Shown in pieces: positions 13,597 through 45,819 of a stretch of 64,000 bases of DNA. Position 1 is the stretch's first letter, and each line of letters begins with the position of its first letter. Under the pieces are notes generated by a model, which was given only the letters and a program-made list of their open reading frames with translations, made no database searches and had not been told where the DNA came from. Source of the DNA: an uncultured Flavobacteriales bacterium (GTDB lineage: Bacteria > Bacteroidota > Bacteroidia > Flavobacteriales_G > Salibacteraceae); the NCBI GenBank assembly GCA_937121175.1, contig CAKZKD010000004.1, positions 248,001-312,000 on the forward strand, given 5' to 3'. The position numbers were made by a program, and so were the translations under genes.

Positions 13597-14703
13597 CTAC
13601 TTCGCGGAAACTGCTGCTAATTTCCTCAAGGCTTTAAAGCACAATTCATTCTCTTCCGGTAATCCAACGGTAATTCTTAAACAATGAGAAAGTCCAAAAG
13701 CTTTTAGAGGGCGAACAAAAACACCCATTTTCATCAATTCCTCGAAGTAGTATTGGACAATGCCCTCTGTTTTTAGGTTGAGCATCACAAAATTACCATA
13801 ACTCGGGATGTACTCCAGATCAAGTTCCTTAAAAACAGCGTAATATTTCTGAATTTCACTTGTATTATTCGAAATAGTTTTCTCCAAATACTCAAAATCT
13901 GACAAAGCACCAATTCCCGCAGCCTGCGCCAAATTTGAAGGCTCAAAAGTTAACTTAACTTTCATTATTGCTTCAATTAATTTTGAGTGACCAATGGCAT
14001 AACCAATCCTGATTGCCGCAATTCCATACGCCTTAGAAAAAGTGCGGAGGGTTAATACATTCTCGTATTTATAGTTGGCACTGTTTGGATAGTCAACACC
14101 CAAATCATTTGCAAATTCGTAATAAGCTTCATCAACAATAATCAAAATGTGTTCTGGCACTTTTTCTATAAACTCTACTAAATCTTGCTCAGCAATCATA
14201 GCACCAGTCGGGTTGTTAGGGTTGGATAAGTATATCGCCTTTGTTTTATCATTAATCGAACCCAACAGCGCATCCAAATCAAAACCAAATTTTTGATTCA
14301 GTGGAACAGTACTCACCTTTACATTGTTAGCCTTTGCCCAGATATATACTGCAACAAAAGTTCCTTCACAAGTCAACAACTCCTCTCCTTCCTTAAAAAA
14401 GGCGTTGAACAAATTATTGAAAATGGATTCGCTACCATTACCAACAGCCACTTCATCGAAAGACCTATTCCATTTTTTAGCCAGAAGCGTTCTTAACTCC
14501 GTACAAACTGGGTCAGGGTATAAATGCGAATTCGGTGTTGCTTTGGCAATGCACTCTAGCGCACGAGGCGAGGGTCCAAAATTATTTTCATTGTTCCACA
14601 ACACCGCCACTTCAGACAAATTGAGCTCTTTAATTATTTGAGGCAATGGTTTACCGGGCTTATAACTTTTGAGTTCTTGAATATTTTCGGGAATATGAAT
14701 CAT
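13597..14703 (-). CDS. hisC: Histidinol-phosphate aminotransferase family (HisC-like)
   Basis: A 368-residue fold-type I PLP enzyme. Seen: SNPNNPTGA (about 162-170), DEAYYEF with the cofactor-contacting Asp, the Schiff-base lysine in TFSKAYG (Lys225) and RIGYAIG with the phosphate-binding Arg. HisC converts imidazole-acetol phosphate and glutamate to histidinol phosphate; stand-alone copies like this one, outside a his operon, can also act on aromatic amino acids, so the substrate is inferred. The start is placed at the ATG at 14703 (MIHIPENIQELKSYKPGK), because a perfect -7 element lies at 14719-14726, inside the longer frame beginning at 14802. It ends head-on with the previous gene with no spacer. 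Confidence 0.85.
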   Translation of the reverse strand: MIHIPENIQELKSYKPGKPLPQIIKELNLSEVAVLWNNENNFGPSPRALECIAKATPNSHLYPDPVCTELRTLLAKKWNRSFDEVAVGNGSESIFNNLFNAFFKEGEELLTCEGTFVAVYIWAKANNVKVSTVPLNQKFGFDLDALLGSINDKTKAIYLSNPNNPTGAMIAEQDLVEFIEKVPEHILIIVDEAYYEFANDLGVDYPNSANYKYENVLTLRTFSKAYGIAAIRIGYAIGHSKLIEAIMKVKLTFEPSNLAQAAGIGALSDFEYLEKTISNNTSEIQKYYAVFKELDLEYIPSYGNFVMLNLKTEGIVQYYFEELMKMGVFVRPLKAFGLSHCLRITVGLPEENELCFKALRKLAAVSAK

Positions 14704-22321: not shown

Positions 22322-24478
22322 TCACCTAATTTCCTGTTCAGTGGCTTCAACACTTGGTGCACTAAACCCAGGTTCAGCATAAATGATTGACTTTGTCACA
22401 AAGTTGTAATAGGCCATTTTATCGTTGGCAGTAAACTGGATTATCTCTTCAGAAACAGCTTCGATTCCATCATAAATAGCTGCGAGAATCGGCTCGTTGT
22501 TTCGATTAATAACACCGAATTTGCCCTCCTTTTTTACCAACAACAAACTTTGCTCAAAAGGCTCAATACTTTCATACTCCGCCGGAATTACAAACTTCCC
22601 ATCTGGGTTAATCATACCAAATAACCCTTTAGATTTCACTTTGGCCGTTCCGTATTCGAAATCTCCTGCATATTCATATTTGTAGTTGATTTTCAGTTTC
22701 ACTTTTTCATTCGCATAACCCCATTTCTTATACCGCTTAACTGCCGATAAACCATTCGGGTTAAAACCTCCTATTTGCTCAAACATAACTGGATAAATGC
22801 GTTTTCCTGTGGAATCAATCACACCGTACAAACCCTTTGAATTCCGCACTGCTATATAACCATTGGTTATCTTATTATTAGCGGCAACTATTTGATTAAA
22901 AGCATATTTCAAATCAATTATTAGATTACCCAATTCATTTACAAACCCGTATTTACCTTCCTGAACAACCATCATCATTCCTTCGGACAAATCGCCAATA
23001 AACTCATATTCAAATGGTAAAATGGTATCTTTCTTAATATTCAATAAACCGAAATTATCTTGGTATTTTAATTTAATAAGCGAGTCGTTTACAAACGACA
23101 CCCAATCGTAAATTGGCTGGATAAGAAACTGACCCGTTTTTGAAATTAAGCCCTGTTTTCCATCTAAAGTAACTTTTGCAAAATCGTTCTCAAATTCAGA
23201 TGCACGCTCAAATTTGTAAGGAATTTTAATTCGGATTTCGTCATTGAAGTAACCGTACTTTCCATCTCTTTGAACTCGAATTAAGCCATTTTGCATTTCA
23301 CCAATATCATCATATCGAGTTGGTAACACCAATTGACCATGATTATTCACTAATCCATAAAAATCGCCTTTTTGAACCCAAGCAAATCCATTTACAAAAT
23401 TACCTGCATCGTCGTAGCTCAGTGTGACTATTACTTTTCCTGCTTTATCAATAAAACCAGTAAAATTGCCCTTACCCACCATAGCAATTCCCTCACTGAA
23501 TGGTTCCACCCAATCGTATGTGGGTTTTATTTTCACTTTTCCTTTATCGTCAATAAAACCCCAACGGCCAGATATTCGAAACGGCAGATAGACTGAATTT
23601 AACAACTCTACATTCAGCAGAATTTCATTTTTGCTGGGGTAATCGGGGTACTTAGCCAAAAACGCTTTGATTTGTTTCGGGTTGTTTTGAGTGACGGTAA
23701 GCATATAAACTCGCTTCCAAGCTTCACTTACATTTTTGTTATTTGGATTTGCCAAAATGAACTTATGATATACTTCAGGTGATTCTACTTTAGTGGTTCG
23801 AGCATATATTTCATCTTGAGCCTCACCGACATAAGGACTCATTGGGTATTCGTTAATGAAAGTCTTGTAGGCAGCTACTTTCTTCAACTTGGTCTTATAC
23901 TCGTAATACAGTCGGTCGTATTTATGACGGGCTTCTGCAGCTTGTTTAGCCTCTGGGTATGTTGTAAAAAACTCCTGAAAAGCCTCCCAGGTGTTTTTTG
24001 CATTGGCTTCTTTAAATGCGGCTTTATCGCGCAAGGCAATTGCTTGGTGAGTTTTCTTGAACCAAGGATGGGATTCTAGATAACTGTTATAGGCCACGGA
24101 AGTATTTTCCGCTTTGGCTTTCTCGAAGAACAACTCGCTTACTTTTTCTTTTTGCTCTCTAATTTCCATTGAATCCACGCCAACGGCAAACAGTTTAGCC
24201 CGTTTCTTTTCATCCAAATTAGTAAACGCTTTTTCTGCTTCCAAAATGAATTTGTAAGCCGAATCGGGCTGATGAAACGGATTGTCTTTTCTCAAATAAA
24301 TGATACTCAAACCATACCCCGCTCCAGTGGTGTCTTTTTTGTACGATTTCTCGAAAAGTTCTTTGGCTTTAAAATAATTGTAAATATGAAGTGCTTCGTA
24401 TGCTTTTTCAAGCTTACCGGCTGAGGCCGATAGGGAAAGTAGCACGAATACCAACCCTATATAAACAACGCGAATCAT
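22322..24478 (-). CDS. Exported TPR plus WG-repeat protein
   Basis: A 718-residue protein with a signal peptide (1-20). The N-terminal part (about 20-290) is helical and TPR-like (YEALHIYNYFKAKELFEKSYKKD, FKEANAKNTWEAFQEFFTTYPEAKQAAEAR). The C-terminal 400 residues are about ten WG repeats of the form W/YGFID-x-x-GK-x-x-I-x-x-x-YD (RWGFIDDKGKVKIKPTYDWV, YGLVNNHGQLVLPTRYDDI, QGLISKTGQFLIQPIYDWV, FGMINPDGKFVIPAEYESI). WG-repeat proteins are common in Bacteroidota and of unknown function. It stands alone, with an exact -7 element just before its ATG. Confidence 0.85.
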   Translation of the reverse strand: MIRVVYIGLVFVLLSLSASAGKLEKAYEALHIYNYFKAKELFEKSYKKDTTGAGYGLSIIYLRKDNPFHQPDSAYKFILEAEKAFTNLDEKKRAKLFAVGVDSMEIREQKEKVSELFFEKAKAENTSVAYNSYLESHPWFKKTHQAIALRDKAAFKEANAKNTWEAFQEFFTTYPEAKQAAEARHKYDRLYYEYKTKLKKVAAYKTFINEYPMSPYVGEAQDEIYARTTKVESPEVYHKFILANPNNKNVSEAWKRVYMLTVTQNNPKQIKAFLAKYPDYPSKNEILLNVELLNSVYLPFRISGRWGFIDDKGKVKIKPTYDWVEPFSEGIAMVGKGNFTGFIDKAGKVIVTLSYDDAGNFVNGFAWVQKGDFYGLVNNHGQLVLPTRYDDIGEMQNGLIRVQRDGKYGYFNDEIRIKIPYKFERASEFENDFAKVTLDGKQGLISKTGQFLIQPIYDWVSFVNDSLIKLKYQDNFGLLNIKKDTILPFEYEFIGDLSEGMMMVVQEGKYGFVNELGNLIIDLKYAFNQIVAANNKITNGYIAVRNSKGLYGVIDSTGKRIYPVMFEQIGGFNPNGLSAVKRYKKWGYANEKVKLKINYKYEYAGDFEYGTAKVKSKGLFGMINPDGKFVIPAEYESIEPFEQSLLLVKKEGKFGVINRNNEPILAAIYDGIEAVSEEIIQFTANDKMAYYNFVTKSIIYAEPGFSAPSVEATEQEIR

Positions 24479-26150: not shown

Positions 26151-29100
26151 CTACATATTTCTTCTGTACTGGCCTCCAACCTCAAACAACGCACTAGTTA
26201 TCTGACCCAAAGAACAATACTTAGTTACTTCCATTAGCTTTTCGAAGATATTTTCATTCTGAACTGCAGCTTGTTGCACAGACTTAATTAATTCATCCGC
26301 TTTATGCGAATTGCCTTCATGCAATTGTTTCAACATGCTAATCTGATATTCTTTTTCCTCTTGTGTTGCACGAATTACTTCTTGAGGCAATACCGTTGGG
26401 GAGCCTTTAGAACTCAAGAAGGTATTCACTCCAATTATAGGAAAATCACCATTATGCTTCAGGGTTTCGTAATACAAGGACTCTTCTTGAATTTTTGAAC
26501 GTTGGTACATGGTTTCCATCGCACCCAATACACCACCTCTTTCAGTGATGCGCTCAAATTCTTGTAATACAGCCTCTTCCACCAAATCGGTCAATTCTTC
26601 AATAATAAACGAACCTTGAAGTGGGTTTTCGTTTTTCGCTAAACCAAGTTCTTTGTTAATGATTAGCTGAATCGCCATTGCGCGGCGCACAGACTCTTCT
26701 GTAGGAGTTGTAATTGCTTCATCGTAAGCATTTGTATGCAGCGAATTACAGTTATCGTAAATTGCATACAATGCTTGTAAGGTTGTTCTAATGTCGTTAA
26801 AATCAATCTCCTGAGCGTGTAATGAGCGACCAGAAGTTTGAATGTGATACTTCAACATTTGAGCTCTTGGATTTGCTCCATACTTCTGCTTCATGGCTTT
26901 AGCCCAAATTCGTCGAGCTACCCTGCCAATTACAGCGTATTCTGGGTCAATACCATTACTAAAGAAGAAAGATAAGTTAGGACCAAACTTGTTTATGTCC
27001 ATTCCTCGGCTCAAGTAGTATTCAACATACGTAAATCCATTTGACAATGTAAATGCTAACTGTGTAATGGGATTCGCTCCCGCCTCGGCAATGTGATATC
27101 CAGATATAGAAACCGAATAGAAATTTCGCACATTGTTCCTGATGAAATAATCCTGTACATCGCCCATTAATCGGAGTGCAAATTCAGTAGAGAAAATACA
27201 GGTATTCTGTGCTTGGTCTTCTTTCAGAATATCAGCTTGCACCGTTCCACGAACTTTAGTCAAGGTATCTGCCTTAATAGTTTCGTAAACATCTTTTGGC
27301 AACACTTGGTCGCCAGTTACGCCAAGCAGCATAAGACCAAGACCATCATTTCCTTCTGGAAGTTCTCCTTGGTAACTTGGACGGTCAACGCCAGCATTTT
27401 TATACAGCTCTGCAATCTTAGCCTCTATTTCTTGTTCAAGACCATTTTCTTTGATGTACTTCTCGCAGTTTTGGTCTATGGCAGCATTCATAAAGAACCC
27501 AAGCAACATAGGTGCAGGGCCGTTTATTGTCATAGAAACTGAGGTTAATGGATTTGACAAATCAAATCCTGAGTAAAGTTTCTTAGCGTCATCCAAACAG
27601 CAGATAGAAACACCAGCGTTTCCGATTTTACCGTAAATGTCAGGTCTAAAATCGGGATCGTTTCCATAAAGTGTAACTGAATCAAACGCCGTAGAAAGAC
27701 GCTTTGCTGGCATAGCCAAACTCACGTAGTGAAAACGTTTGTTCGTTCTTTCTGGACCACCTTCACCGGCAAACATTCTTGTTGGGTCTTCGCCTTCTCT
27801 TTTAAAAGGAAACAATCCTGCGGTGTATGGGAATTCTCCTGGAACATTTTCTTGCAAGCTCCATTTAAGAATATCGCCCCAACTTCTGTACTTGGGCAAC
27901 ACCACTTTTGGAATTTGAGAATGCGACAAAGACTCTGAATGCGTTTTGATTTTCAGTTCTTTATCTCGAACCTTAAAGATATATTCGGGTGCAGCATACC
28001 TTGCTTTTTTGTCTCCGAATTCTTCAATAATCTTTAAGTTTCTTGGGTCTAAATCTAACTTTATCGTCTCATAAGACTCCTGTAATTTTTTAATCAATCG
28101 ATCTTTATCATCAATCGTTGAATCAGCAAGTGTGTTTATGCTTATTTGAATACCGTACAATTTTTCGGCAATGTGGGCTTGAGCAGAAACCCATTCGTCA
28201 TAAGACCTATTGTTTTCGGCAATTTCTGCAAGGTATCGAGTTCTTTTTGGTGGAATGATGAAAATCTTTTCGGACATTTCATTCGTTATTTCAAACGAAC
28301 TCTCCAGTTTCACTCCAGTTTTTTCCACCAATTGCTCCATTATCTTTTTGTAGAGCGTATTCATTCCAGGATCGTTAAACTGCGATGCAATTGTTCCGAA
28401 AACAGGCATGGTATCCATATCCACGTGGAACAGATTATGATTCCGTTGGTATTGTTTTTTAACATCACGAATGGCATCTAATGCTCCTCGCTTGTCAAAT
28501 TTGTTCAAGGCAATGATATCCGCAAAGTCTAGCATGTCAATCTTTTCCAACTGAGTTGCTGCTCCATATTCTGGGGTCATTACATACAGGCTCACGTCCG
28601 AGTGGTCTAAAATTTCGGTATCCGACTGACCAATTCCAGAAGTTTCTAAAATGATTAAATCAAACTTGGAAGCTTTAATAATCTGAAGTGCCTCGTTTAC
28701 ATGCTTTGATAAAGCCAAATTTGACTGGCGAGTCGCTAACGAACGCATATAAACTCTATCGGTATTAATGCTATTCATTCGTATCCTGTCACCCAATAAA
28801 GCACCACCTGTTTTTCGTTTTGAAGGATCAACAGAAACTACTGCAATGTTTTTATCCTGAAAATCAATAAGAAAGCGGCGCACTAGTTCATCTACCAATG
28901 AAGACTTACCTGCACCTCCGGTACCCGTAATCCCTAAAATTGGCGTGTCGATTGACTTTGCCATTTCGTGAATTTGATCAAGTGCTGATTTCGCTTTTTC
29001 TGGAAAATTTTCAGCCGCAGAAATTAATCGAGCTATCGAAACCGTATCTTTCTCTTCAAGGTGGTTTACTTCTCCATTCAAATTTTCACCAATTGGAAAA

Positions 29101-29531
29101 TCGGACTGTTTAACCAAATCATTAATCATTCCTTGCAAGCCTAGTGACCGGCCATCGTCTGGGGAGTAAATTTTGGTAATTCCGTATTCGTGCAGTTCTT
29201 TGATTTCTTCAGGAAGGATAACACCTCCTCCACCTCCAAAAAGTTTGATATGAGTCGAATTTCGATCCTTGAGCAAATCGTACATGTATTTAAAATACTC
29301 AACATGACCACCTTGGTATGACGTCATTGCTATGGCATTGGCATCTTCTTGAATTGCGCAATTCACCACTTCTTCAACACTACGATCATGTCCAAGGTGA
29401 ATTACCTCAACACCAGTAGATTGAATAATTCTGCGCATTATATTGATGGCAGCATCATGACCATCAAATAATGAAGCGGCGGTTACAATTCTGACTTTAT
29501 TTGTTGGTTTGTACGGTGCAACTTGTTCCAT
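26151..29531 (-). CDS. icmF: Fused B12-dependent acyl-CoA mutase with GTPase (IcmF type)
   Basis: A 1126-residue fusion. Order: cobalamin-binding domain (about 12-140, DGHDAAI with lower-axial His25), a MeaB-like G-protein chaperone (about 190-420, Walker [10 protein letters not shown] at 203-211, NKFD), and the mutase barrel (about 560-1050, [40 protein letters not shown]). IcmF interconverts isobutyryl-CoA and n-butyryl-CoA, or related branched acyl-CoAs, and carries its own repair GTPase. The Phe in GLFPFKR and the block [13 protein letters not shown] fit the isobutyryl-type pocket better than methylmalonyl-CoA mutase, which would have Tyr and Arg. Monocistronic with a strong promoter. Confidence 0.9.
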
Positions 29532-30576: not shown

Positions 30577-31347
30577 TTAATCTTCCTTCAAAACTTCCTG
30601 TATTTCCTCGAATGCTTGCACGTATATTCGATAGAATTCTGAATAGGTTGTTTCAATTATTTGCCAGTTTGGTTCAGAAAATTCAAGCTCCCTTTCAATA
30701 ATTTCTAATTTGGGAACAACCCCTTTAATTCCACCTATATTTAGAGGCGATTTTAGTTTATGAGCACTATCGCCCGCTGATTTTTTATCCCAGGTTTTTA
30801 TGGACGTAAGCAACTCAGTACAATACTGTGGTACCTCCACTAAAAAAGATTCGTAAATTAACCCTAAAAATTTACCATCCCCATTAGAAAGTTTTACAGC
30901 GTTTTGATAATCTATTGGATAATCAGTTCCAAAAGAAGCTGCCCGCTTTCTTAATACATTTATTAGATCATCACCCGCAATCAATTCACTTATTAGGCTA
31001 GGAATTTTTGGAATTTCATCGAAACTTATAAAGGCATTTACACCAAAGTCAACCAAAGTCAATTGTTGAGCTGACGTCAATTCAGTTCCATAGACAATAA
31101 TTTTTAAAGGACTTTTTCGCTTAGCATAACGTAAGAGTGGAATAATTTCTATTTCATGTCGAACGTTACTGTACAAACTACCTGAAAGAAATAAAGCATC
31201 AAATTTATTCGCAGCCATAGCACCAATTCCGTCCAAGGGATTATCGATGAAATGCATCTTACATAGATGTGATTCAACCGCTTTTTGCAACAGTAATTTC
31301 TCATCTTCAGAATTAACCAATGAAAGTATGTTAAGTTTTTCTGCCAT
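30577..31347 (-). CDS. Hpt-domain protein with degenerate receiver
   Basis: A 256-residue protein. Residues 1-125 have the alternating beta/alpha pattern of a receiver domain (ILSLVNSEDEKLLLQKAV, FDALFLSGSL, LKIIVYGTEL, VNAFISFDEI), but at the phospho-acceptor position after FDALFL there is Ser, and the acidic pair at the N-terminus is reduced. Residues about 150-250 form a histidine phosphotransfer domain with the phospho-histidine in SAHKLKSPL. It may therefore relay phosphate through the Hpt domain while the pseudo-receiver serves binding. It is head-to-head with the LytTR regulator gene (90-bp gap), which suggests a shared signalling role. Confidence 0.8.
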   Translation of the reverse strand: MAEKLNILSLVNSEDEKLLLQKAVESHLCKMHFIDNPLDGIGAMAANKFDALFLSGSLYSNVRHEIEIIPLLRYAKRKSPLKIIVYGTELTSAQQLTLVDFGVNAFISFDEIPKIPSLISELIAGDDLINVLRKRAASFGTDYPIDYQNAVKLSNGDGKFLGLIYESFLVEVPQYCTELLTSIKTWDKKSAGDSAHKLKSPLNIGGIKGVVPKLEIIERELEFSEPNWQIIETTYSEFYRIYVQAFEEIQEVLKED

Positions 31348-31437
31348 TAAGATAGGATATACGCGCGAAAATCGTTAAAATTGAGCGGAATATGTTTTGT
31401 TTGGTATTTATATTCCATCCTTAAACTATATAGATTA

Positions 31438-32124
31438 ATGAATTGTGTAATTGTAGATGACGAAAAACTGTCAAGGACAGTAATTGAAAAATTTGTTCAA
31501 GACACGAATACGTTGAACCTTGTTGGATCCTATTCAAATGGACATGACCTTCATAAGGCATTGAACAATAAAAGCATAGATCTAATTCTTTTGGATATAA
31601 ACATGCCAGAAATTAATGGTATGGATTTAATAAAAACCACCGAAAATATTCCTCAAGTTGTCTTTATTACAAGCCATACTGATTATGCAATTGAAGCTTT
31701 TGAACATGATGTTACCGATTACTTGGTGAAACCAATTGAATACGCCCGATTTTTGAAAGCTGTTGACAAGGCCGAAAAAATTCACGAAGCGTTTGGGGTT
31801 CAAGAAACTGAAGACAATACAATTTATATAAAAAGTGATAGTCGCCTAATAAAAATGGACTTAACCAAAATCACCTTCATTGAAGCTCTAGGTGATTATG
31901 TGCGAATACACTCAAAAATGGGCAAGTACACTGTGCTAAGCACCATGAAATCTATGGCTCAAAAACTACCGAGTGAGTATTTTATGAGGATCCACAAATC
32001 TTACATCGTTCGACTTGATAAAATTCAAAAAATTGTAAAAAACGAGGTTTATCTAGAAAGTAACACGGTTCCAGTATCTAGAAGTTATAAAGACATACTA
32101 AAAGAACGCCTTCCGTTGCTATAA
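31438..32124 (+). CDS. LytTR-type response regulator
   Basis: A 228-residue regulator. Receiver domain (about 1-118): acidic VDDEKLSR, phospho-acceptor Asp in LILLDINMPEINGMD, Thr/Ser in FITSHTDYA and Lys in YLVKPIEYARF. DNA-binding LytTR domain (about 130-226): IYIKSDSRLIKMDLTKITFIEALGDYVRIH and FMRIHKSYIV. The start is the ATG at 31438, since the longer frame begins at a TTG whose extra residues are not part of the receiver fold. In Bacteroidota such regulators often control surface polysaccharide or cell-envelope genes. The unknown membrane protein gene follows after 49 bases on the same strand. Confidence 0.92.
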   Translation: MNCVIVDDEKLSRTVIEKFVQDTNTLNLVGSYSNGHDLHKALNNKSIDLILLDINMPEINGMDLIKTTENIPQVVFITSHTDYAIEAFEHDVTDYLVKPIEYARFLKAVDKAEKIHEAFGVQETEDNTIYIKSDSRLIKMDLTKITFIEALGDYVRIHSKMGKYTVLSTMKSMAQKLPSEYFMRIHKSYIVRLDKIQKIVKNEVYLESNTVPVSRSYKDILKERLPLL

Positions 32125-32173
32125 AGGCTTCACTCAACTCCATTTTAACATAGCTATTACTTAATATTGCGAA

Positions 32174-33397
32174 ATGGATATTAAGCGATGGTTCCTTGGC
32201 ATACTAATACTTATTCTAGTAAGCATGCCGGTGGTGAGTATTCTTGTGTGGGTGTTTAGCCCGACGTATCCAATAAACTTAATGATTGTCGATAAAACTG
32301 TACTAACACCTGAAGGTAACGAGCATAGAAGTTTCAATTGGATATTAAAACACAATAAGTACGTTAAGCCAGATGGTTCCTATTATGAAATTTCTGATTA
32401 TAGAGGTTTTTTTCCTTTAGATAGTCAAAAGTTCTACATTAACGACCTAGACATTTACAAAGATGAACAGCTTGATAGCCTTTCTGACACTTTAGATATG
32501 GTATATTTTGCTGACACCTACGGTATTTACTATAATGAATGGTATCGCCAAGAAGATGAAAACGAACACTCGGAAATCGTATATGGTAGAACGTCCAACA
32601 ACGATTTTGCTTTCATGCAGAAAATGCACGAAAAACAAAAACTCGTTATAACCGAGTTCAATACTATTGCCTCTCCCACTAATGTTGGTGTCCGAAAAAA
32701 AATGGAAGAGGAATTCGGCGTTCGTTGGTCAGGATGGGTTGGGCGTTACTTTTTTTCGTTGGACACTACCAAGAATCCAGAACTCCCCAAGTGGGTAGTG
32801 AATTTATACAAAGAACAATATTGCGATGAATGGCCTTTTAAAGAGAGTGGAATTGTATTAGTTCATGAATCAGAAGAGATTGTTGTACTCGACAATTCTC
32901 AAGACTTACTGCACGAAGTACCTATTATTAATACTGATAGGTACTATCAAGAATTTTTTGGAGTACCAGAATACATTCGATATCCGTTTTGGTTTGATAT
33001 TACTTACTTGGAGTATGATGATTTAGTAGTTTCGACCTATAAACTACATACTAGCCTAAGGGGAGACTCGGTCTTAAATGCTCATAAAATCCCCAAGGAG
33101 TTTCCAGCCGTTTTGGGTGACCACATTATCAATAGGTTCTACTATTTCGCTGGTGATTTTGCGGATAATCCCATTGCATTTTCAGCGGTATATTCAAGAG
33201 GCATAGAATACCTTGATTTTTTCTTGTACAACAATAAAGACTTATCAGATCGTCAAAAATTCTTTTGGACCTACTACAATCCGCTCATGTCGAAAATCAT
33301 GTCGGACTATTATGGAGTTGTAAATTTTGATTTTGGTGATGATTACAACCCTGATGAAAATACCGAAACTATTTCTTTTGGGGAAGAACCAGAATAA
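32174..33397 (+). CDS. Membrane-anchored protein of unknown family in the polysaccharide locus
   Basis: A 407-residue protein with one N-terminal membrane segment (about 5-29) and a periplasmic body. I cannot assign a Pfam family. The body starts with INLMIVDKTVLTPEGNEHRSF and shows alternating predicted strands and helices: DMVYFADTYGIYYNEWY (about 107-123), KLVITEFNTIASPTN (about 155-169), then FGVRWSGWVGRYF (about 178-190). The order resembles an alpha/beta (GATase-like) fold, which is only a guess. No deacetylase motif is seen. It ends two bases before the convergent glycosyltransferase gene and follows the LytTR regulator, so it is placed as an accessory protein of the exopolysaccharide system. 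Confidence 0.7.
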   Translation: MDIKRWFLGILILILVSMPVVSILVWVFSPTYPINLMIVDKTVLTPEGNEHRSFNWILKHNKYVKPDGSYYEISDYRGFFPLDSQKFYINDLDIYKDEQLDSLSDTLDMVYFADTYGIYYNEWYRQEDENEHSEIVYGRTSNNDFAFMQKMHEKQKLVITEFNTIASPTNVGVRKKMEEEFGVRWSGWVGRYFFSLDTTKNPELPKWVVNLYKEQYCDEWPFKESGIVLVHESEEIVVLDNSQDLLHEVPIINTDRYYQEFFGVPEYIRYPFWFDITYLEYDDLVVSTYKLHTSLRGDSVLNAHKIPKEFPAVLGDHIINRFYYFAGDFADNPIAFSAVYSRGIEYLDFFLYNNKDLSDRQKFFWTYYNPLMSKIMSDYYGVVNFDFGDDYNPDENTETISFGEEPE

Positions 33398-33399
33398 AT

Positions 33400-35547
33400 T
33401 TACTCTCTTAGCAGCCAAGAATCCCCGTTCACGTTCAACCGGATGTTAAACAAGTAATCTTTTGCCCTTTTTTCTGTATCAAATACTGCATATGCCACAC
33501 GATATCTATTGTCACTCTGTACAACAACCGCACGCCTAAAACCCTGCGCCTGTAGACCATCTCGCAGCTGTACCGCATTTTCGTATTCCAAATAACTACC
33601 TGCAATTATGTAATAATCAATCTTACTCGAAGACTTTTTAACCACATCCTTTTTTACTTCAGATTTCTTCTTCGGTACTTCTTTTGTCTCTGGTTTTTGG
33701 GAATCCTTCGTCGGTTGGTTTTTACTTTTATCGTATTCCCCAAATCGAGTTCCACTATCAGGGTCTTTTATTTTTGTTGGACCACCACCTTCCACGAGCT
33801 CTCTCTCTTTTTCAGACTGCTTAGTTGATTTTAGTGCAATTTTCAAAGAGCGAGATAGTAATGCCCTTTCTTTTTTAATCAACGTTTCGGAGGGTGTTGC
33901 TTTAGGTTGGAACATTTCGATAAGTGTTGGGCTAAAAGCCAACTTGTTTTTAGTCAACAATGCATCTAAGTCAACTATAACGTACAAAAATATAGCTACA
34001 GTGGCAACAGCTGCTGCAGCATATCCTGTGATTGAAGCTTTAACCACTGGAGCTTTTTGTACTGGCGTAACTTTTTCTACTACACGAATTCTTTTTGGGC
34101 CTCCAGTTGCAGTTTGCCCAAAGCCTTTACGCGTCATTTCTCCCCAGGACGATTTACCGAATAAGTAATCCAAATTGCCCATAACTGCGGAATAAACGAC
34201 AAATGGATGATAGATAAAGGGCTCTATTAATCCTGTACGAAGCAACGCCAGTAAATCTCTTTTACGCTTGTAGTTATGATAGGTAATTTCTTCTATTAAA
34301 AGTGATAGCACAGAGAAGGTTACGGTAAAACCAAAAATCAACAGCATCATTAATAGAAAGAAGCTCCAATTTACCAATCCCACAAGTGCCAACAGAAAAA
34401 AGAGCATTAATCCGAAGGCTTCTAATAAAGGTGCTGCCCACTCAAATACGAACCAATACGGGTAACTCAACATTCCCAACAGTTTGTACTTTGGATTAAA
34501 GAACATTCCCCTATGTTTCCATAGCGTTTCAATAGTACCACGTGTCCAGCGATTTCTTTGTCTTCCTAAAATGCTCCATGACTCGGGGCATTCTGTCCAA
34601 CATAGTGGGTCTGGAATAAAAGCAACGGTATAATTTCGCTTTTGCTCAATCATATAACGACGCATTCGAACAACGAGTTCCATGTCCTCTCCAACGGTTT
34701 TATGATCATATCCACCAACTTCAATAGCTATCTTTCGACTAAAAACACCCAGTGCACCGCTAATTAAAATGAGTCCGTCCATTAGACTCCAGGCCATTCT
34801 ACCTAATAAAAACGCACGTATATATTCTAACGCCTGCGAACGAGCAACAAAATTCGTTGGAACTCTTACTTCAAGTAAACGTCCATCTTCAACCTTGCAG
34901 CTATTCGCAATACGAATGACTCCACCAGTTGCAATTACCTCTCGTTCATTTTCATCCATGAACGGTTTCATGAGTTTAAGAAGAGCATCCTGCTCAAGCA
35001 CACAATCCACATCAATACAGGTAACATAATCGTACTGAGCGATATTTATCCCAACATTTAAGGCATCTGATTTTCCACCATTTGCTTTATCAACCACCAC
35101 TAACTGGTTAAATGCTTCATTTTGGGATTTATAAACGCCATAAATATCTTTTGTAGGTAACTCATGATTAATGGCAAAATCAACCTTAACCAAATCGTAT
35201 TCCTCAATTAACAATTCAATGGTTTCATCCTTACTACCGTCGTTAATGACCACAACTTCAAAGTTTGAGTAATGAATCGACAGTATCGAACGAACATTTT
35301 CAATAATCGTGGCAGCTTCGTTGTACGCCGGAGCTAGAATAGTAACTGACGGAGCGAACTCCGTATTCAGAATGTCTTTGTAATCGACAAAGAAATTTTT
35401 TCGGAGATATTTCTTTACAGCCAAAAAAGAAATGAGCGATAGTGAAAGGTACGACACCATGATAGACACCGAATAGATGTACAGTAGGTTGTAAAATAAA
35501 TCGACCGCGATATCCCAAAAGGAAGTATCTAAGTCATATTCTTTCAT
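33400..35547 (-). CDS. Family 2 glycosyltransferase (polysaccharide synthase type) fused to SPOR domain
   Basis: A 715-residue inner-membrane processive glycosyltransferase. Order: N-terminal membrane segments (about 15-45), cytoplasmic GT2 domain (about 66-310) with ILAPAYNE, VVINDGSKDET, the DxD motif DVDC (179-182), GEDMELV and QRNRW (330-334, the QxxRW signature of PgaC/cellulose-synthase-like enzymes), several membrane segments (about 360-420), a last membrane segment (about 506-527), a Lys/Ser/Pro-rich linker, and a SPOR domain (about 645-709, YYIIAGSYLEYENAVQLRDG). SPOR domains bind peptidoglycan lacking stem peptides. The ATG at 35547 is preferred to the TTG at 35565. It overlaps the HEAT gene by 14 bases. 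Confidence 0.88.
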   Translation of the reverse strand: MKEYDLDTSFWDIAVDLFYNLLYIYSVSIMVSYLSLSLISFLAVKKYLRKNFFVDYKDILNTEFAPSVTILAPAYNEAATIIENVRSILSIHYSNFEVVVINDGSKDETIELLIEEYDLVKVDFAINHELPTKDIYGVYKSQNEAFNQLVVVDKANGGKSDALNVGINIAQYDYVTCIDVDCVLEQDALLKLMKPFMDENEREVIATGGVIRIANSCKVEDGRLLEVRVPTNFVARSQALEYIRAFLLGRMAWSLMDGLILISGALGVFSRKIAIEVGGYDHKTVGEDMELVVRMRRYMIEQKRNYTVAFIPDPLCWTECPESWSILGRQRNRWTRGTIETLWKHRGMFFNPKYKLLGMLSYPYWFVFEWAAPLLEAFGLMLFFLLALVGLVNWSFFLLMMLLIFGFTVTFSVLSLLIEEITYHNYKRKRDLLALLRTGLIEPFIYHPFVVYSAVMGNLDYLFGKSSWGEMTRKGFGQTATGGPKRIRVVEKVTPVQKAPVVKASITGYAAAAVATVAIFLYVIVDLDALLTKNKLAFSPTLIEMFQPKATPSETLIKKERALLSRSLKIALKSTKQSEKERELVEGGGPTKIKDPDSGTRFGEYDKSKNQPTKDSQKPETKEVPKKKSEVKKDVVKKSSSKIDYYIIAGSYLEYENAVQLRDGLQAQGFRRAVVVQSDNRYRVAYAVFDTEKRAKDYLFNIRLNVNGDSWLLRE

Positions 35548-36631
35548 CAAGAGCGTGCCTAACAATTTCCTTGTTTTTAGGGAACTTTAGTTCCTTGTTA
35601 TCTAATATTTTCAAAATAGCCTTTCCTCCAAGTTCTCTGAGAGCCAAAGCAGCATGCATTGCTATATCAAAATGTTCTCTTTCTTCAATCTCATGCTTAA
35701 AAAAATTCAAATCTCCAGTGTCACCGAGTTCTGAAAGTGTGTCTAAAATTCTTACCTGAACTTCAGGTTTTACCTTTGGATAAAACTCTCTTAGCTTTCC
35801 ACAGCCTCGCTTAAACTGTAGCTCTTTAATACATTCCAAACACTTAACAGCCACATAAGGTCGTTCATGAAGAACATGAACCAGTACCTTTTCCCCTGAT
35901 TGAAATTTCTGAAAATGCGCAATAATTCTACTAGCAAATATGATTACTGAATCGTTATCGGATAGCAACCAATTGTCCACATTTGGTATATCTTCAGGCA
36001 TGAATTTTATCAACTTCTCTAAAAGTACCAACTGCTGCCATTCAGAAATTGGAGTTTTTAGTTTAGGCACAAAATCTAATGCTTCTGGTCCTTTAAGAAC
36101 TACTGCAGCATATTGCGCCTCTTGCCTCAAAATCTTGTTATCGTGATCTACATACTTCACTATAAGTTTATAAGCAGACTTATCATTAAATTCTGACAAC
36201 TCTCGAAAACCTCTTGCCTTATAGTACCAAGCTCCACGCTTAACATCAACTTTAGCGTAATAATCGAGATTTACGTCCATGTAGAAATCTTGCAATACAA
36301 TGGCGCTCTCCCCTGAAACACCCTTGTGCAATTCCATCATGTTATCAACTAAACATCTTCTTACCAATTTAGGCAAGGTTCGAGCGTTATATTTATCTAC
36401 AATTTTCTGGTACTTACTTTGACCTTTGGCGTAATCTGGTTCAAATAAAATTTTGACCAATAGGTTTTGAAATCTATCGTTCCAATATGTCTGCTTTTTT
36501 TCTTTTCTATTGGTTACTGTTCTGCTAATTAAAATTCCAATTAGTAGAATAATAGAAAAGAAAAGAAGAATAAAAATTATTCCACCTATAAAGCGAGATG
36601 CAAAGTCCTGAGCTAAATAATAATCCCACAT
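35534..36631 (-). CDS. Membrane-anchored HEAT-repeat protein
   Basis: A 365-residue protein with one N-terminal membrane segment (about 14-38, GGIIFILLFFSIILLIGILIS) followed by a basic stretch (RTVTNRKEKKQ), which places the helical remainder in the cytoplasm. Residues about 130-360 are HEAT-like repeats (NKILRQEAQYAAVVLKG, HERPYVAVKCLECIKEL, KPEVQVRILDTLSELGD, HFDIAMHAALALRELGG). It is probably a scaffold for the synthase. Gene order between the TPR-YaiO barrel (ATG one base after that stop) and the glycosyltransferase (14-base overlap) argues for a stoichiometric complex. Confidence 0.82.
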   Translation of the reverse strand: MWDYYLAQDFASRFIGGIIFILLFFSIILLIGILISRTVTNRKEKKQTYWNDRFQNLLVKILFEPDYAKGQSKYQKIVDKYNARTLPKLVRRCLVDNMMELHKGVSGESAIVLQDFYMDVNLDYYAKVDVKRGAWYYKARGFRELSEFNDKSAYKLIVKYVDHDNKILRQEAQYAAVVLKGPEALDFVPKLKTPISEWQQLVLLEKLIKFMPEDIPNVDNWLLSDNDSVIIFASRIIAHFQKFQSGEKVLVHVLHERPYVAVKCLECIKELQFKRGCGKLREFYPKVKPEVQVRILDTLSELGDTGDLNFFKHEIEEREHFDIAMHAALALRELGGKAILKILDNKELKFPKNKEIVRHALDERI

Positions 36632-36632
36632 A

Positions 36633-38687
36633 CTAAAATCTCCACCAAATTCCTAGGTTCAAACTAATGATATTAAAATCGGCGATTTGCTGAGGGTAAT
36701 ACTGATCATATATCACCCAAGCTTTTCCATGCAAGGATTTGGATAATTTTTGTTGGTATCCTAAACCAATATTAAAGCTCGTGGATTCTACGGTTTGGGT
36801 AAAAACAGGATCTAGGTACGCGTTATCTGGAGAAGAACCTGTTCCGAGAAATGCCTCTACATAAGTTAATGGATCTGCGAAAAAATACCGCCCTTGCAAT
36901 TGGTAAGACTGGAACAACCCATTCGGTTTAAATATGAAATAAGGTCTAAAAGAAATCCAAAAATTACCAGGGTAATTAGCAATACTTCCAGTAAAAATGG
37001 TAACATCATCCGTTGGATATTGCATGTATCTGAATCCTAAACTTGCTTCAAAATTTAAGGGTAAAGAAACAAAAGGCTCAAAGGCAGCTCTGAATTGTGG
37101 AAACAAAAAATTATTGGAAATGCCTACATTGGCATAGGCATAGAGCCAATCAGTAAAAACTGGGTACGCGTCAATTTCGAATTGTACTCCAGTACTATCG
37201 AATCGATTGGCAAGGGTTACTCTACCTAACAAAACGTGCCGTTTAATTCTTCGTTGATATTCAAGCGTCAATGCAGCTCGGTTAAAGGAAGGGTCAAGGG
37301 CATTGCTCCAAATATCATAAGTAACAAATCCGCCAAATTGATTGAGCATGATTTCTTCTACTTCTTTTCTTAATTCAATCAATTCGGTATTCAGAGAGTC
37401 TTGGTTCAAACCCTCATCAATTGTCTTTAATGCATTGTTTTTTTCGTACCTACTTTTTTGAATTCTTGCTTTTTGTGCATAGAAACTTGCCTCATCTGGG
37501 TGTTGCTCAATAAACTGGTCTGTTAACTTCAAGGATTTACTGTTTTGTCGATCCCAGAAATGCAGTTTCGAATACAACAATTTTGTATTTACATCAGTAG
37601 AATCTACAGGTTTTGGTCCTTGCTCTATTGCTTTTATGGCTTTTTTGAATTCTTTCTTACCGGTAAGAGAAAGCACCCTGAAACGCAGTAATTCTTCATC
37701 TAACTGATAAATAGTATCAAGCCTATTTACAATTGAAAGAACTGAATCGTAATTTTCTTGCATAAGCTGGCTATTCAACACTAAAGACCAAACATCATAG
37801 CTCAAAGAATCTTCGCTAAGCAGAACACTGCAAATGGAGTCACAAATGCTCAAAGAATCTATTCTCAAGTTTGCTTTTGCCAGAAGAGTTCGCAATACCG
37901 GGTCTGCTGGATGAAAAACAAGACCTTCTTCTGCATGAAGAATAGCAGTGTCATTTGTACCCTTCCAGACCGGAATATTGGTATTTTGATGGTGTAGCGC
38001 TAAATTCTTTTGGTCGATTTCAAACCCAGTGTCCACATCACAATAAGCCGTATCGAATAAATTCTGAGTACACCAATTCTTGGATCTTAAAATACGTAGA
38101 TCAATATCCTCAGGCCTTATATTTATTAAACTATCAGCTAATTGTCGTGCTTTATTAACACTATCGATTGCAGTTAGTAATCCAATTTTTAGCTTATTCG
38201 CAGACAAGGCATTTTTATCGTTTTCAATAATAGAATCTGCCCATTCGAAGGCCAATTCAAACTGGGACATTGCTTTTAATGTTCTCGCATACTCTAACAT
38301 TAAATCCGAATCAGATTTATGAACTCCAAGGCCTGTCTCCAAAACATTTAAAGAAGTGTGGTATTCAGTGTCCCAACGCTCTACTACTCCCCAAAGTTGA
38401 AAAATACCTTTGTTTTTAGGGAAATCAGAATTTAGTCCTTCGCATTTTACACGCGATGTATCTAATTGCTTGTTCCATGCATAAACGCGTGCTTGAAAAA
38501 TTCGAACATCGAAATAATCGGACTTTTGTTGAATAATGCTGTCGCAGAGATCAATTGATGTCTGATAGTCCCCGGCATAAGCGAGACGTTTTGCTTTTTT
38601 GAATGCGTCATCAAGATTCTGCGCTATCAAAGTGTTGCCAGCAAACGCGGAAACTACAAAGCAAAAAATTATTTTAACCAAGTTCAC
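36633..38687 (-). CDS. TPR protein with C-terminal YaiO-type outer-membrane barrel
   Basis: A 684-residue exported protein. It starts at GTG (no ATG is available before the signal peptide MNLVKIIFCFVVSAFAGNTL, cut before AQNLDD). Residues about 25-430 are tetratricopeptide repeats (DDAFKKAKRLAYAGDYQTSI, AIKAIEQGPKPVDST, ASFYAQKARIQKSRYEKN), and about 450-684 form a beta-barrel of the YaiO type (ALTLEYQRRIKRHVLLGRV, NFWISFRPYFIF to the terminal Phe). The TPR-plus-barrel layout parallels PgaA and BcsC, exporters of polymeric GlcNAc and cellulose. First gene of the operon with the HEAT and GT2-SPOR genes; a -7 element lies 20 bases upstream. Confidence 0.87.
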   Translation of the reverse strand: MNLVKIIFCFVVSAFAGNTLIAQNLDDAFKKAKRLAYAGDYQTSIDLCDSIIQQKSDYFDVRIFQARVYAWNKQLDTSRVKCEGLNSDFPKNKGIFQLWGVVERWDTEYHTSLNVLETGLGVHKSDSDLMLEYARTLKAMSQFELAFEWADSIIENDKNALSANKLKIGLLTAIDSVNKARQLADSLINIRPEDIDLRILRSKNWCTQNLFDTAYCDVDTGFEIDQKNLALHHQNTNIPVWKGTNDTAILHAEEGLVFHPADPVLRTLLAKANLRIDSLSICDSICSVLLSEDSLSYDVWSLVLNSQLMQENYDSVLSIVNRLDTIYQLDEELLRFRVLSLTGKKEFKKAIKAIEQGPKPVDSTDVNTKLLYSKLHFWDRQNSKSLKLTDQFIEQHPDEASFYAQKARIQKSRYEKNNALKTIDEGLNQDSLNTELIELRKEVEEIMLNQFGGFVTYDIWSNALDPSFNRAALTLEYQRRIKRHVLLGRVTLANRFDSTGVQFEIDAYPVFTDWLYAYANVGISNNFLFPQFRAAFEPFVSLPLNFEASLGFRYMQYPTDDVTIFTGSIANYPGNFWISFRPYFIFKPNGLFQSYQLQGRYFFADPLTYVEAFLGTGSSPDNAYLDPVFTQTVESTSFNIGLGYQQKLSKSLHGKAWVIYDQYYPQQIADFNIISLNLGIWWRF

Positions 38688-38706
38688 TAAGAATGCAAAT
38701 TTGCTG

Positions 38707-38714
38707 CAAAGTTA
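38707..38714 (-). promoter_or_regulatory. Promoter -7 element for the exopolysaccharide operon
   Basis: On the minus strand this reads TAACTTTG, an exact TAnnTTTG, 20 bases before the GTG start at 38687. The best -33 candidate (TTG) is only 13 bases further up, so the upstream box is unclear. Confidence 0.6.
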
Positions 38715-38857
38715 AGTCTATTGATTGCAATAATATTACTCTGAATCACTTCTAAGATGTTGATTTTTTTATGTGAAAAATTATTTCCTGGAAAACTGTA
38801 GTTATTGTTCCCGAAATCGAAAATCTAGAAATTCGTTAATGTATTTTCGCGACAATA

Positions 38858-39247
38858 ATGAAGGGCATCAAAATAATGGTTGTAGAAGATGAAAAAATGC
38901 TTCTAAAAACTATTGAGTTTCGACTCAAGAAGGAAAACTTCACCATTGTTACGGCCGAAAACGGTAAAGAAGCTCAAGAACTGTTACCAAAAGAATTACC
39001 TGACCTTATTATTAGCGACGTTATGATGCCTTATGTTTCTGGGCTTGAATTGGTTAAACACGTAAAAGATTTTGACGGAAAGGATATTCCCGTTATTTTA
39101 CTAACTACATTAAGACAGGAGCAGAATGTAATTAAAGCATTTGAAATGGGTGCTGATGAATTCATGACCAAGCCCTTTAGTCCAAACGAACTTATTATAA
39201 GAGTCAATAGACTTTTACGTCAAAAAGGAATAACCCCCCATGCGTAA
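38858..39247 (+). CDS. Single-domain response regulator
   Basis: A 129-residue stand-alone receiver. Seen: acidic VVEDEK, phospho-acceptor Asp in LIISDVMMPYVSG, Thr in LLTTLRQ and Lys in MTKPFSPNEL. There is no output domain, so it acts by protein contact or as a phosphate intermediate. It is divergent from the TPR-YaiO operon and its stop codon overlaps the start of the BadF-type kinase gene by eight bases (translational coupling). A TATTTTCG near-match to the -7 element lies about 17 bases upstream of the ATG. Together with the Hpt protein at 30577 it could form one phosphorelay. Confidence 0.9.
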   Translation: MKGIKIMVVEDEKMLLKTIEFRLKKENFTIVTAENGKEAQELLPKELPDLIISDVMMPYVSGLELVKHVKDFDGKDIPVILLTTLRQEQNVIKAFEMGADEFMTKPFSPNELIIRVNRLLRQKGITPHA

Positions 39248-40085
39248 ATCTATCTTGATAGCAGAAAGTGGCTCTAGCAAAACCGACTGGGTTTTCATCT
39301 CGAATTCGGGTGAACAAAGAACTTCCTCAATTGGGCTGAATCCTTTTGTAGTTGACTCTACTCATGTACTAGAAACATTAAAAAAAGACACCTTCTTTTC
39401 TAAAATTAAAAATGACTCGTTTGAGCTAGTATTTTACGGCTCAGGTTGCTCTTCAAAGAAAAGAAATGAAGTAATTTATAACGGTTTACATTCATTTTTT
39501 CCGAATGCAAAAATCGAGATTCTTCATGATATTCAAGCGGCAGTAAATGCAACTTGCAACAACAAACCTGGTATTGTGGGTATATTGGGAACCGGTTCGA
39601 ATTGCGTTTACTTTGATGGAAAAAAAGTAGATACAGGCCACCCGTCTCCCGGTTATTTGATTGGTGATGAAGGAGCAGGCATGTATATTGGCAAAACTTT
39701 TTTGAGGGATGTACTTTATAAAATTGCTCCTAGTGATATTCTTTCTGCTTTTGAAGCTGAATACAATTTGTCGTCCTCAGAATTAATCGAAGAAATATAT
39801 GCCGCTGAGCATCCCAATGCCTACATAGCATCTTACGTCAAGTTTCTTGGAAAACATGCTGAACATCATTACACCGAAGAATTAGTACATCGATGCTTTG
39901 CCAAATTTGTAAAATTTCATGTTGTACAATTCCCGGAGGCAGCTCAAGCACCACTGCATTTAATTGGATCAATTGCTTTTCATTTTGAGAATATTATTGA
40001 TGATGTTTTAGAGGAATGGAAAATTGAAAAAGGAGTCATTTTAAAATCACCACTTAGAGGGTTGATTGAGTTCCATAAAAAGTAG
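39240..40085 (+). CDS. BadF/BadG family kinase, N-acetylglucosamine kinase-like
   Basis: A 281-residue ASKHA-fold kinase. Seen: phosphate-1 loop LIAESGSSKTDWVF (about 5-18), HDIQAAVNAT with the catalytic-type Asp (about 97), phosphate-2 GILGTGSNCVYFDG (about 114-127), and GYLIGDEGAGMYIGK (about 138-152). This matches GlcNAc kinases of the BadF/BadG group, which phosphorylate GlcNAc at C6 for recycling or salvage. Substrate is inferred from the family; muramic-acid-type sugars are possible. It overlaps the response regulator by eight bases, and sits beside a PgaC-like synthase, which would fit a role in supplying amino-sugar precursor. Confidence 0.8.
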   Translation: MRKSILIAESGSSKTDWVFISNSGEQRTSSIGLNPFVVDSTHVLETLKKDTFFSKIKNDSFELVFYGSGCSSKKRNEVIYNGLHSFFPNAKIEILHDIQAAVNATCNNKPGIVGILGTGSNCVYFDGKKVDTGHPSPGYLIGDEGAGMYIGKTFLRDVLYKIAPSDILSAFEAEYNLSSSELIEEIYAAEHPNAYIASYVKFLGKHAEHHYTEELVHRCFAKFVKFHVVQFPEAAQAPLHLIGSIAFHFENIIDDVLEEWKIEKGVILKSPLRGLIEFHKK

Positions 40086-45417: not shown

Positions 45418-45426
45418 ATCATCAAG

Positions 45427-45819
45427 TGGAGCCGGCGAGAGTCGAACTCGCGTCCAAACATGGAACACTTAGGATTTCTACATGTTTAGCTTATCGTTAG
45501 TTTTCGACTTAAGCCCGGTAACAAGCAACCAAACTCAAGCTTATCTTCTAAATTTCGCACACAATTCGAAGCTCATTGCGCACTAGCCTTCCTTATCGAA
45601 CCCCCAGATTCCCCAAAGCGTTCGGCGAGCTCCAAGGTGAGAGTACTTGTCAATACACCTAGTGTACCGATTAAGCCATCCTACTATTATTCGGATTAAG
45701 CTGCAAGTGCGTAGTTGTTTTCGCCAACTAAAAACGTTGCAACACTTATTACGGATAGTCTTGCAAAACCCGACATGCTTACATAACCATTCGTCATGCT
45801 GTCAAAACCAGTCGGCCCC
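45427..45819 (-). ncRNA. ssrA: Transfer-messenger RNA (tmRNA)
   Basis: The RNA rescues stalled ribosomes and tags the nascent protein for proteolysis. Seen on the minus strand: a 5' end GGGGCCGACTGGTTTTGACAG, a 3' end CGAGTTCGACTCTCGCCGGC followed by TCCA, and a seven-pair acceptor stem between GGGGCCG and CGGCUCC. The T-loop GTTCGACTC is present. The tag frame at 45725-45696 reads GENNYALAA and a stop, the tag form known from Bacteroidota. CCA is not fully encoded and would be completed by the CCA-adding enzyme. A -7 element lies upstream (45848-45855) and a strong terminator downstream. Confidence 0.96.

Follow-up and report, generated by a model that had tools for sequence, protein, structure and literature searches.

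A conserved gene set in Bacteroidota for a putative exopolysaccharide synthase with a HEAT-repeat partner and phosphorelay proteins

The window, by which we mean the whole 64,000-nucleotide stretch of DNA analysed, carries a minus-strand operon for a YaiO-type exporter, a HEAT-repeat protein and a GT2 synthase, together with genes for phosphorelay proteins and a membrane-anchored protein that we call M407. An ORF check of the window found the reading frames of all locus genes intact, and domains were called using Pfam and NCBIfam profiles. The features are as follows.

36633..38687, minus strand: YaiO exporter gene; signal peptide, about 13 predicted TPR hairpins and a C-terminal YaiO barrel
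35534..36631, minus strand: gene for the HEAT-repeat protein (Pfam HEAT_2, 1e-6), with one N-terminal membrane helix
33400..35565, minus strand: GT2–SPOR synthase gene (Pfam GT2, 5e-23; SPOR, 2.8e-5), given with its TTG start
32174..33397, plus strand: gene for M407 (407 aa), membrane-anchored, with a predicted ThuA/amidotransferase-like fold
38858..39247, plus strand: gene for a single-domain receiver (Pfam Response_reg, 3.3e-28) with D54 and K105
30577..31347, minus strand: remnant of a hybrid histidine kinase, 256 aa, with a degenerate receiver and an Hpt domain with H196
31438..32124, plus strand: gene for a LytTR-type response regulator (Pfam REC and LytTR)

The operon runs from YaiO (38687–36633) through HEAT (36631–35534) to GT2–SPOR (35565–33400) and is flanked by the Hpt remnant, the LytTR regulator, M407, the single-domain receiver and a BadF protein. 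A first-pass annotation had described this operon and its neighbours, and its positions and domain motifs agree with the ORF check and the profile searches. The gap between YaiO and HEAT is exactly one base, and the 14-base overlap that the annotation reported is exact for HEAT and GT2 when the GT2 gene uses an ATG start (35547). An alternative TTG start, 18 bases upstream, extends the overlap to 32 bases, and the GT2 start of one relative (L009) aligns with this TTG. The receiver gene of the window is divergent from the operon. Elsewhere in the window, 26151–29531 (minus strand) encodes a 1,126-aa fusion of B12-binding, MeaB-type GTPase and methylmalonyl-CoA-mutase domains, arranged as in IcmF (isobutyryl-CoA mutase fused); two relatives keep this gene in synteny with the locus. 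We also note a tmRNA gene with the tag GENNYALAA (45424–45819, minus strand) and a 718-aa protein with ten WG repeats (22322–24478, minus strand).

The exporter matched the Pfam YaiO profile (1.7e-50) as well as TPRs, and TIGR04390 (3.5e-41). Its AlphaFold2 model (mean pLDDT 91, pTM 0.71) predicts about 13 TPR hairpins followed by a barrel of 14 strands at residues 449–683; the barrels of PgaA and BcsC have 16 strands. In a structure comparison the barrel part of the model resembled the hydrocarbon channel TodX (Z 20.1, 226 residues aligned), and when the full model was used for a fold search, TPR chains dominated the matches. A barrel lacking a pore had been raised as the case against export, and what the model predicts is a 14-strand barrel on a long TPR arm. 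For the HEAT protein, hydropathy places the membrane helix at residues 17–35, and the basic residues that follow it indicate that the HEAT domain is probably cytoplasmic. The GT2 carries the QxxRW motif reported for it and the Asp motifs, which are invariant in an alignment of its relatives; judged from these motifs, its fold would be that of a processive synthase. A C-terminal membrane helix and the SPOR domain follow, with no further C-terminal domain match in Pfam. SPOR is present on the GT2 in all four genomes of the family (that of the window and three others); GT2s elsewhere are about 475 aa long and have no SPOR. SPOR domains are tied to denuded peptidoglycan, and the SPOR domain of this GT2 would be periplasmic and link synthesis to such sites.

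M407 matched no Pfam family and no solved structure in sequence searches. Its AlphaFold2 model (mean pLDDT 88, pTM 0.87) aligned with ThuA-like, amidotransferase-like, GH42 middle-domain and Agd3 chains at Z scores of about 11 to 13.7, Agd3 being a carbohydrate deacetylase, and Foldseek retrieved the ThuA-like structures 4jqs and 4pxy (E 6e-4). The predicted model shares the overall fold of class I glutamine amidotransferases, but an alignment of 26 sequences contains no invariant or nearly invariant cysteine that could act as the catalytic nucleophile, and amidotransferase activity is therefore unlikely. M407 is membrane-anchored and probably periplasmic. A role in binding or modifying the polymer in the periplasm would suit its anchor and fold and its constant position beside GT2, although sharing a fold does not establish function. 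Profile searches gave no sequence kinship with PgaB, PgaD, BcsB or YbcH. In a Bacillaceae contig (L104, 11388–14657), an M407 domain lies inside a 1,089-aa protein that has no Pfam match and adjoins a GT2, a receiver and a kinase.

At the site of the window's Hpt protein, two relatives from other genera of the same family (L007 and L009) encode hybrid kinases of 882 and 901 aa with the architecture PAS-HisKA-HATPase-REC-Hpt. Aligned to these, the window's copy has lost everything N-terminal to the receiver as well as the receiver's Asp (LSG, versus LMD in the relatives), and has kept H196, the histidine of the Hpt domain, with the residues around it (AHKxKxPLNI). The domains that the annotation had assigned to an Hpt protein with a degenerate receiver are present, but on the evidence of this alignment the 256-aa protein is the truncated remnant of a full hybrid kinase. 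A search for an ortholog of the kinase elsewhere in the genome gave no clear candidate, the best match reaching 36% and extending over the kinase core and receiver only. With the kinase half lost and no clear ortholog present, the relay in this genome is truncated and probably fed in trans; the proposed phosphorelay of the locus's own is thus incomplete here. The lone receiver is well preserved, with the phospho-acceptor D54 kept in 73 of 74 aligned receivers and K105 in all 74. The LytTR regulator (64–68% identity in L007 and L009) is kept only in these two fully syntenic relatives and at 1 of 80 wider loci. In L007 a further LytTR regulator, whose own receiver is weak, is encoded between YaiO and the lone receiver (13148–13816, plus strand); the window has no counterpart. 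The best solved relatives of the BadF protein are Bacteroidota-type MurNAc/GlcNAc kinases, in line with the GlcNAc kinase-like assignment made earlier; its gene is conserved beside the receiver in close relatives only, and we rejected a function in precursor supply. The BadF protein is probably unrelated to the system and lies outside the conserved set.

In L007 and L009 the block is preserved in full, running from the genes for the methylmalonyl-CoA-mutase-type protein and a CHU_C protein through kinase, LytTR, M407, GT2, HEAT, YaiO and receiver to BadF, and a third genome of the family (L008) keeps only the YaiO–HEAT–GT2 trio. GT2 and M407 are 62–78% identical to their relatives. The HEAT gene occurs patchily within the family, in 5 of 60 genomes searched (counting the window's own genome and one weak match from another family), and genomes of the same genus are without it. 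To look more widely, we scanned GTDB species with a GT2 alignment and named 80 loci, picked by GT2 similarity alone; many are from Flavobacterium and Maribacter species and they are hence not independent. HEAT lies directly upstream of GT2 in 70 of these loci, overlapping it in 39; 64 have a receiver no longer than 140 aa upstream on the same strand; and 47 have a hybrid kinase longer than 500 aa encoded within 9 kb. All 37 neighbouring kinases have HisKA, HATPase and REC domains, and 35 of the 37 end in REC-Hpt with a recognizable Hpt domain. The loci span Bacteroidota and Neomarinimicrobiota, and include Bacillaceae (L104) and Symbiobacteriaceae (L105) relatives, labelled Gram-positive, that have GT2 and a receiver and no YaiO match, as expected if YaiO serves an outer-membrane step; in L104, HEAT was detected by Pfam. 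Gene order is thus kept in other genera and across the wider loci, where its confinement to this one genome had been named as grounds for doubt.

Co-occurrence was counted in 395 Bacteroidota genomes, sampled evenly across the phylum. Of these, 94 have the GT2 clade (50 of 171 genera) and 93 have YaiO (49 of 171 genera); 92 genomes have both, that is, 92 of the 93 YaiO carriers, and for 83 of the 97 YaiO genes the distance to GT2 is under 7 kb. For HEAT, 65 of the strongest 66 matches are within this distance. M407 is rarer, with 14 of 395 genomes, all of which have GT2, and 13 of its 15 copies lie within 7 kb of GT2, which makes it a real part of the system. Hypergeometric P values are 7e-87 for YaiO and GT2 and 9e-10 for M407 and GT2; these ignore relatedness and are hence too small, and the genus counts agree with the co-occurrence at genome level. 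The arrangement is far beyond chance, and the association of HEAT, GT2, YaiO and the 407-aa protein that the annotation had suggested looking for across the phylum is borne out. About one in four of the sampled Bacteroidota genomes has relatives of the gene set, and carriers include the cultured genera Flavobacterium, Chryseobacterium, Sphingobacterium, Pedobacter and Maribacter.

The locus has the general features of a synthase-dependent exopolysaccharide system: a membrane GT2 bearing the QxxRW and Asp motifs, co-encoded with a TPR-bearing outer-membrane barrel. PgaABCD of Escherichia coli likewise pairs a processive-type GT2 with a TPR-barrel exporter, and PgaC is the nearest characterized synthase (about 25% identity). 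However, the window's GT2 scores 137 bits against a PgaC/IcaA equivalog cut-off of 422; neither the PgaB deacetylase/hydrolase nor PgaD was found at the locus with Pfam, NCBIfam or the M407 and HEAT profiles; and the window has a predicted 14-strand YaiO barrel, a HEAT partner and a phosphorelay in place of c-di-GMP. For the Bcs cellulose system the score is likewise far too low (CelA 37 bits, BcsA cut-off 699), Pfam and the M407 and HEAT profiles revealed no BcsB-like neighbour, and a genome-wide search found no PilZ domain. NfrA/NfrB/YbcH, the N4 glycan system of E. coli, also combines a GT2, an anchored periplasmic protein and a TPR barrel (PMC8669469), but NfrB and the window's GT2 gave no BLAST match at E 1e-3 and the M407 profile does not match YbcH. 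On these defining features the locus belongs to none of Pga, Bcs and Nfr. The uncharacterized E. coli cluster yaiO-yaiX-yaiP-yaiS also has a YaiO barrel encoded beside a GT2, but this GT2 is only 25% identical to that of the window, its YaiO is short (257 aa), and the other genes encode an acyltransferase and a deacetylase, with HEAT, receiver and kinase missing. A tree of GT2s that included E. coli references gave no resolution owing to its long branches. Searches of the open-access literature for YaiO, for HEAT with GT2 and for Bacteroidota synthases returned no description of the gene set, and the main text of a survey of operons (PMC7112194) is silent on Bacteroidota, HEAT and YaiO; as far as we found in that literature, the conserved set is undescribed.

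Domain searches with positive controls found no GGDEF and no PilZ domain in the genome of the window (3.7 Mb, rated 100% complete). This supports the earlier view of a system distinct from c-di-GMP-controlled Pga and Bcs, one that in this genome would work without c-di-GMP. GGDEF is also absent from 58 of 80 other carrier genomes. In several carriers that do have the domain, a GGDEF match lies about 2–3 kb from GT2, and the locus of L099 includes a gene for an Hpt-REC-GGDEF-REC protein. It is a reasonable inference that in some lineages a diguanylate cyclase serves where most Bacteroidota have only the lone receiver, and because these lineages keep GGDEF at the locus, the system is not c-di-GMP-free everywhere.

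We favour the reading, at a probability of roughly 0.6, that the locus encodes a synthase-dependent exopolysaccharide system in which control of the GT2/HEAT synthase falls to a phosphorelay in place of c-di-GMP. The membrane GT2 would polymerize sugar and drive the polymer over the inner membrane; YaiO, with its TPR arm and predicted 14-strand barrel, would take it over the outer membrane; and M407 may assist in the periplasm by binding or processing it. The SPOR domain would probably keep the synthase where peptidoglycan is dividing or being remodelled. In the wider family, phosphate would pass from the hybrid kinase to its own receiver, to its own Hpt domain and on to the single-domain receiver, which would act on the synthase post-translationally, most likely through the HEAT protein; membrane-anchored and with its repeats probably in the cytoplasm, the latter would be a natural adaptor between the two. 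In the window's genome, where the kinase half is lost and Hpt kept, another kinase would have to supply Hpt and receiver. The conserved gene set, the GT2 motifs and the barrel model argue for the synthesis-and-export locus proposed from the first reading, in which polymer production itself is likely; the amino-sugar polymer also put forward draws on the kinship with PgaC and is a weak suggestion. A recent precedent for such control exists in Myxococcus, where the phosphorylated single-domain receiver EpsW activates the exopolysaccharide enzyme EpsZ after translation (PMC12802240); EpsZ differs from a GT2 synthase in being a phosphoglycosyl transferase, part of a Wzx/Wzy pathway, and no HEAT protein features in the abstract. 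We are more tentative, at somewhat below even odds, about the stronger form of our reading: a distinct and widespread class of synthase, set directly by a phosphorylated lone receiver through a membrane-anchored HEAT protein, a control that would replace that by c-di-GMP across much of Bacteroidota. If true, this would be a second example, after EpsW–EpsZ, of a receiver directly controlling a polysaccharide enzyme. The presence of the gene set in cultured genera opens the control of biofilm polymers in Bacteroidota that lack c-di-GMP enzymes to genetic test.

The contact between receiver and HEAT is where the main competing explanation parts from this reading. The polysaccharide machine could be real and the receiver make no contact with it, HEAT being a structural scaffold and the relay acting elsewhere, for example on transcription through LytTR-type regulators. 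A search of relatives for receiver–HEAT or HEAT–GT2 gene fusions, which would have been taken as proof of contact, found none, so the contact rests on gene neighbourhood; such a scaffold would also fit the LytTR regulator adjoining the locus in three family genomes and the position of the window's receiver outside the operon. We nevertheless regard it as unlikely, though a serious contender, as the output-less receiver is upstream on the same strand at 64 of 80 loci and a LytTR regulator occurs at only one. Decay of the locus in this genome, with regulation or activity gone, would account for the deleted kinase half, the lost Asp of that protein's receiver and the same-genus genomes without HEAT, but all other ORFs are intact, GT2 and M407 retain the identity to relatives given above, and both the Hpt histidine and the lone receiver's Asp are kept, which makes decay improbable. 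We consider it highly improbable that the system is a local relative of Pga/Nfr under c-di-GMP control, with HEAT or another part binding the nucleotide: GGDEF at the locus in some lineages and the nearness of PgaC point that way, against which stand the genome without GGDEF or PilZ, the 58 carriers without GGDEF, and M407 and HEAT profiles that match no PgaB, PgaD, BcsB or YbcH.

The wider loci have two further features. Maribacter-type HEAT proteins (L067, L069–L077, L079, L081, L082 and L087) have an extra C-terminal part of about 350–830 residues, which had no Pfam match in L067, the one tested. At many loci an LtaS/OpgB-like membrane enzyme of the sulfatase superfamily, absent from the window and sometimes accompanied by TPRs, follows GT2 (for example, L037, 11416–13803; L083, 11443–13467) or is fused to it (L035, 9968–13321), which suggests phosphoglycerol-type decoration of the polymer in those loci.
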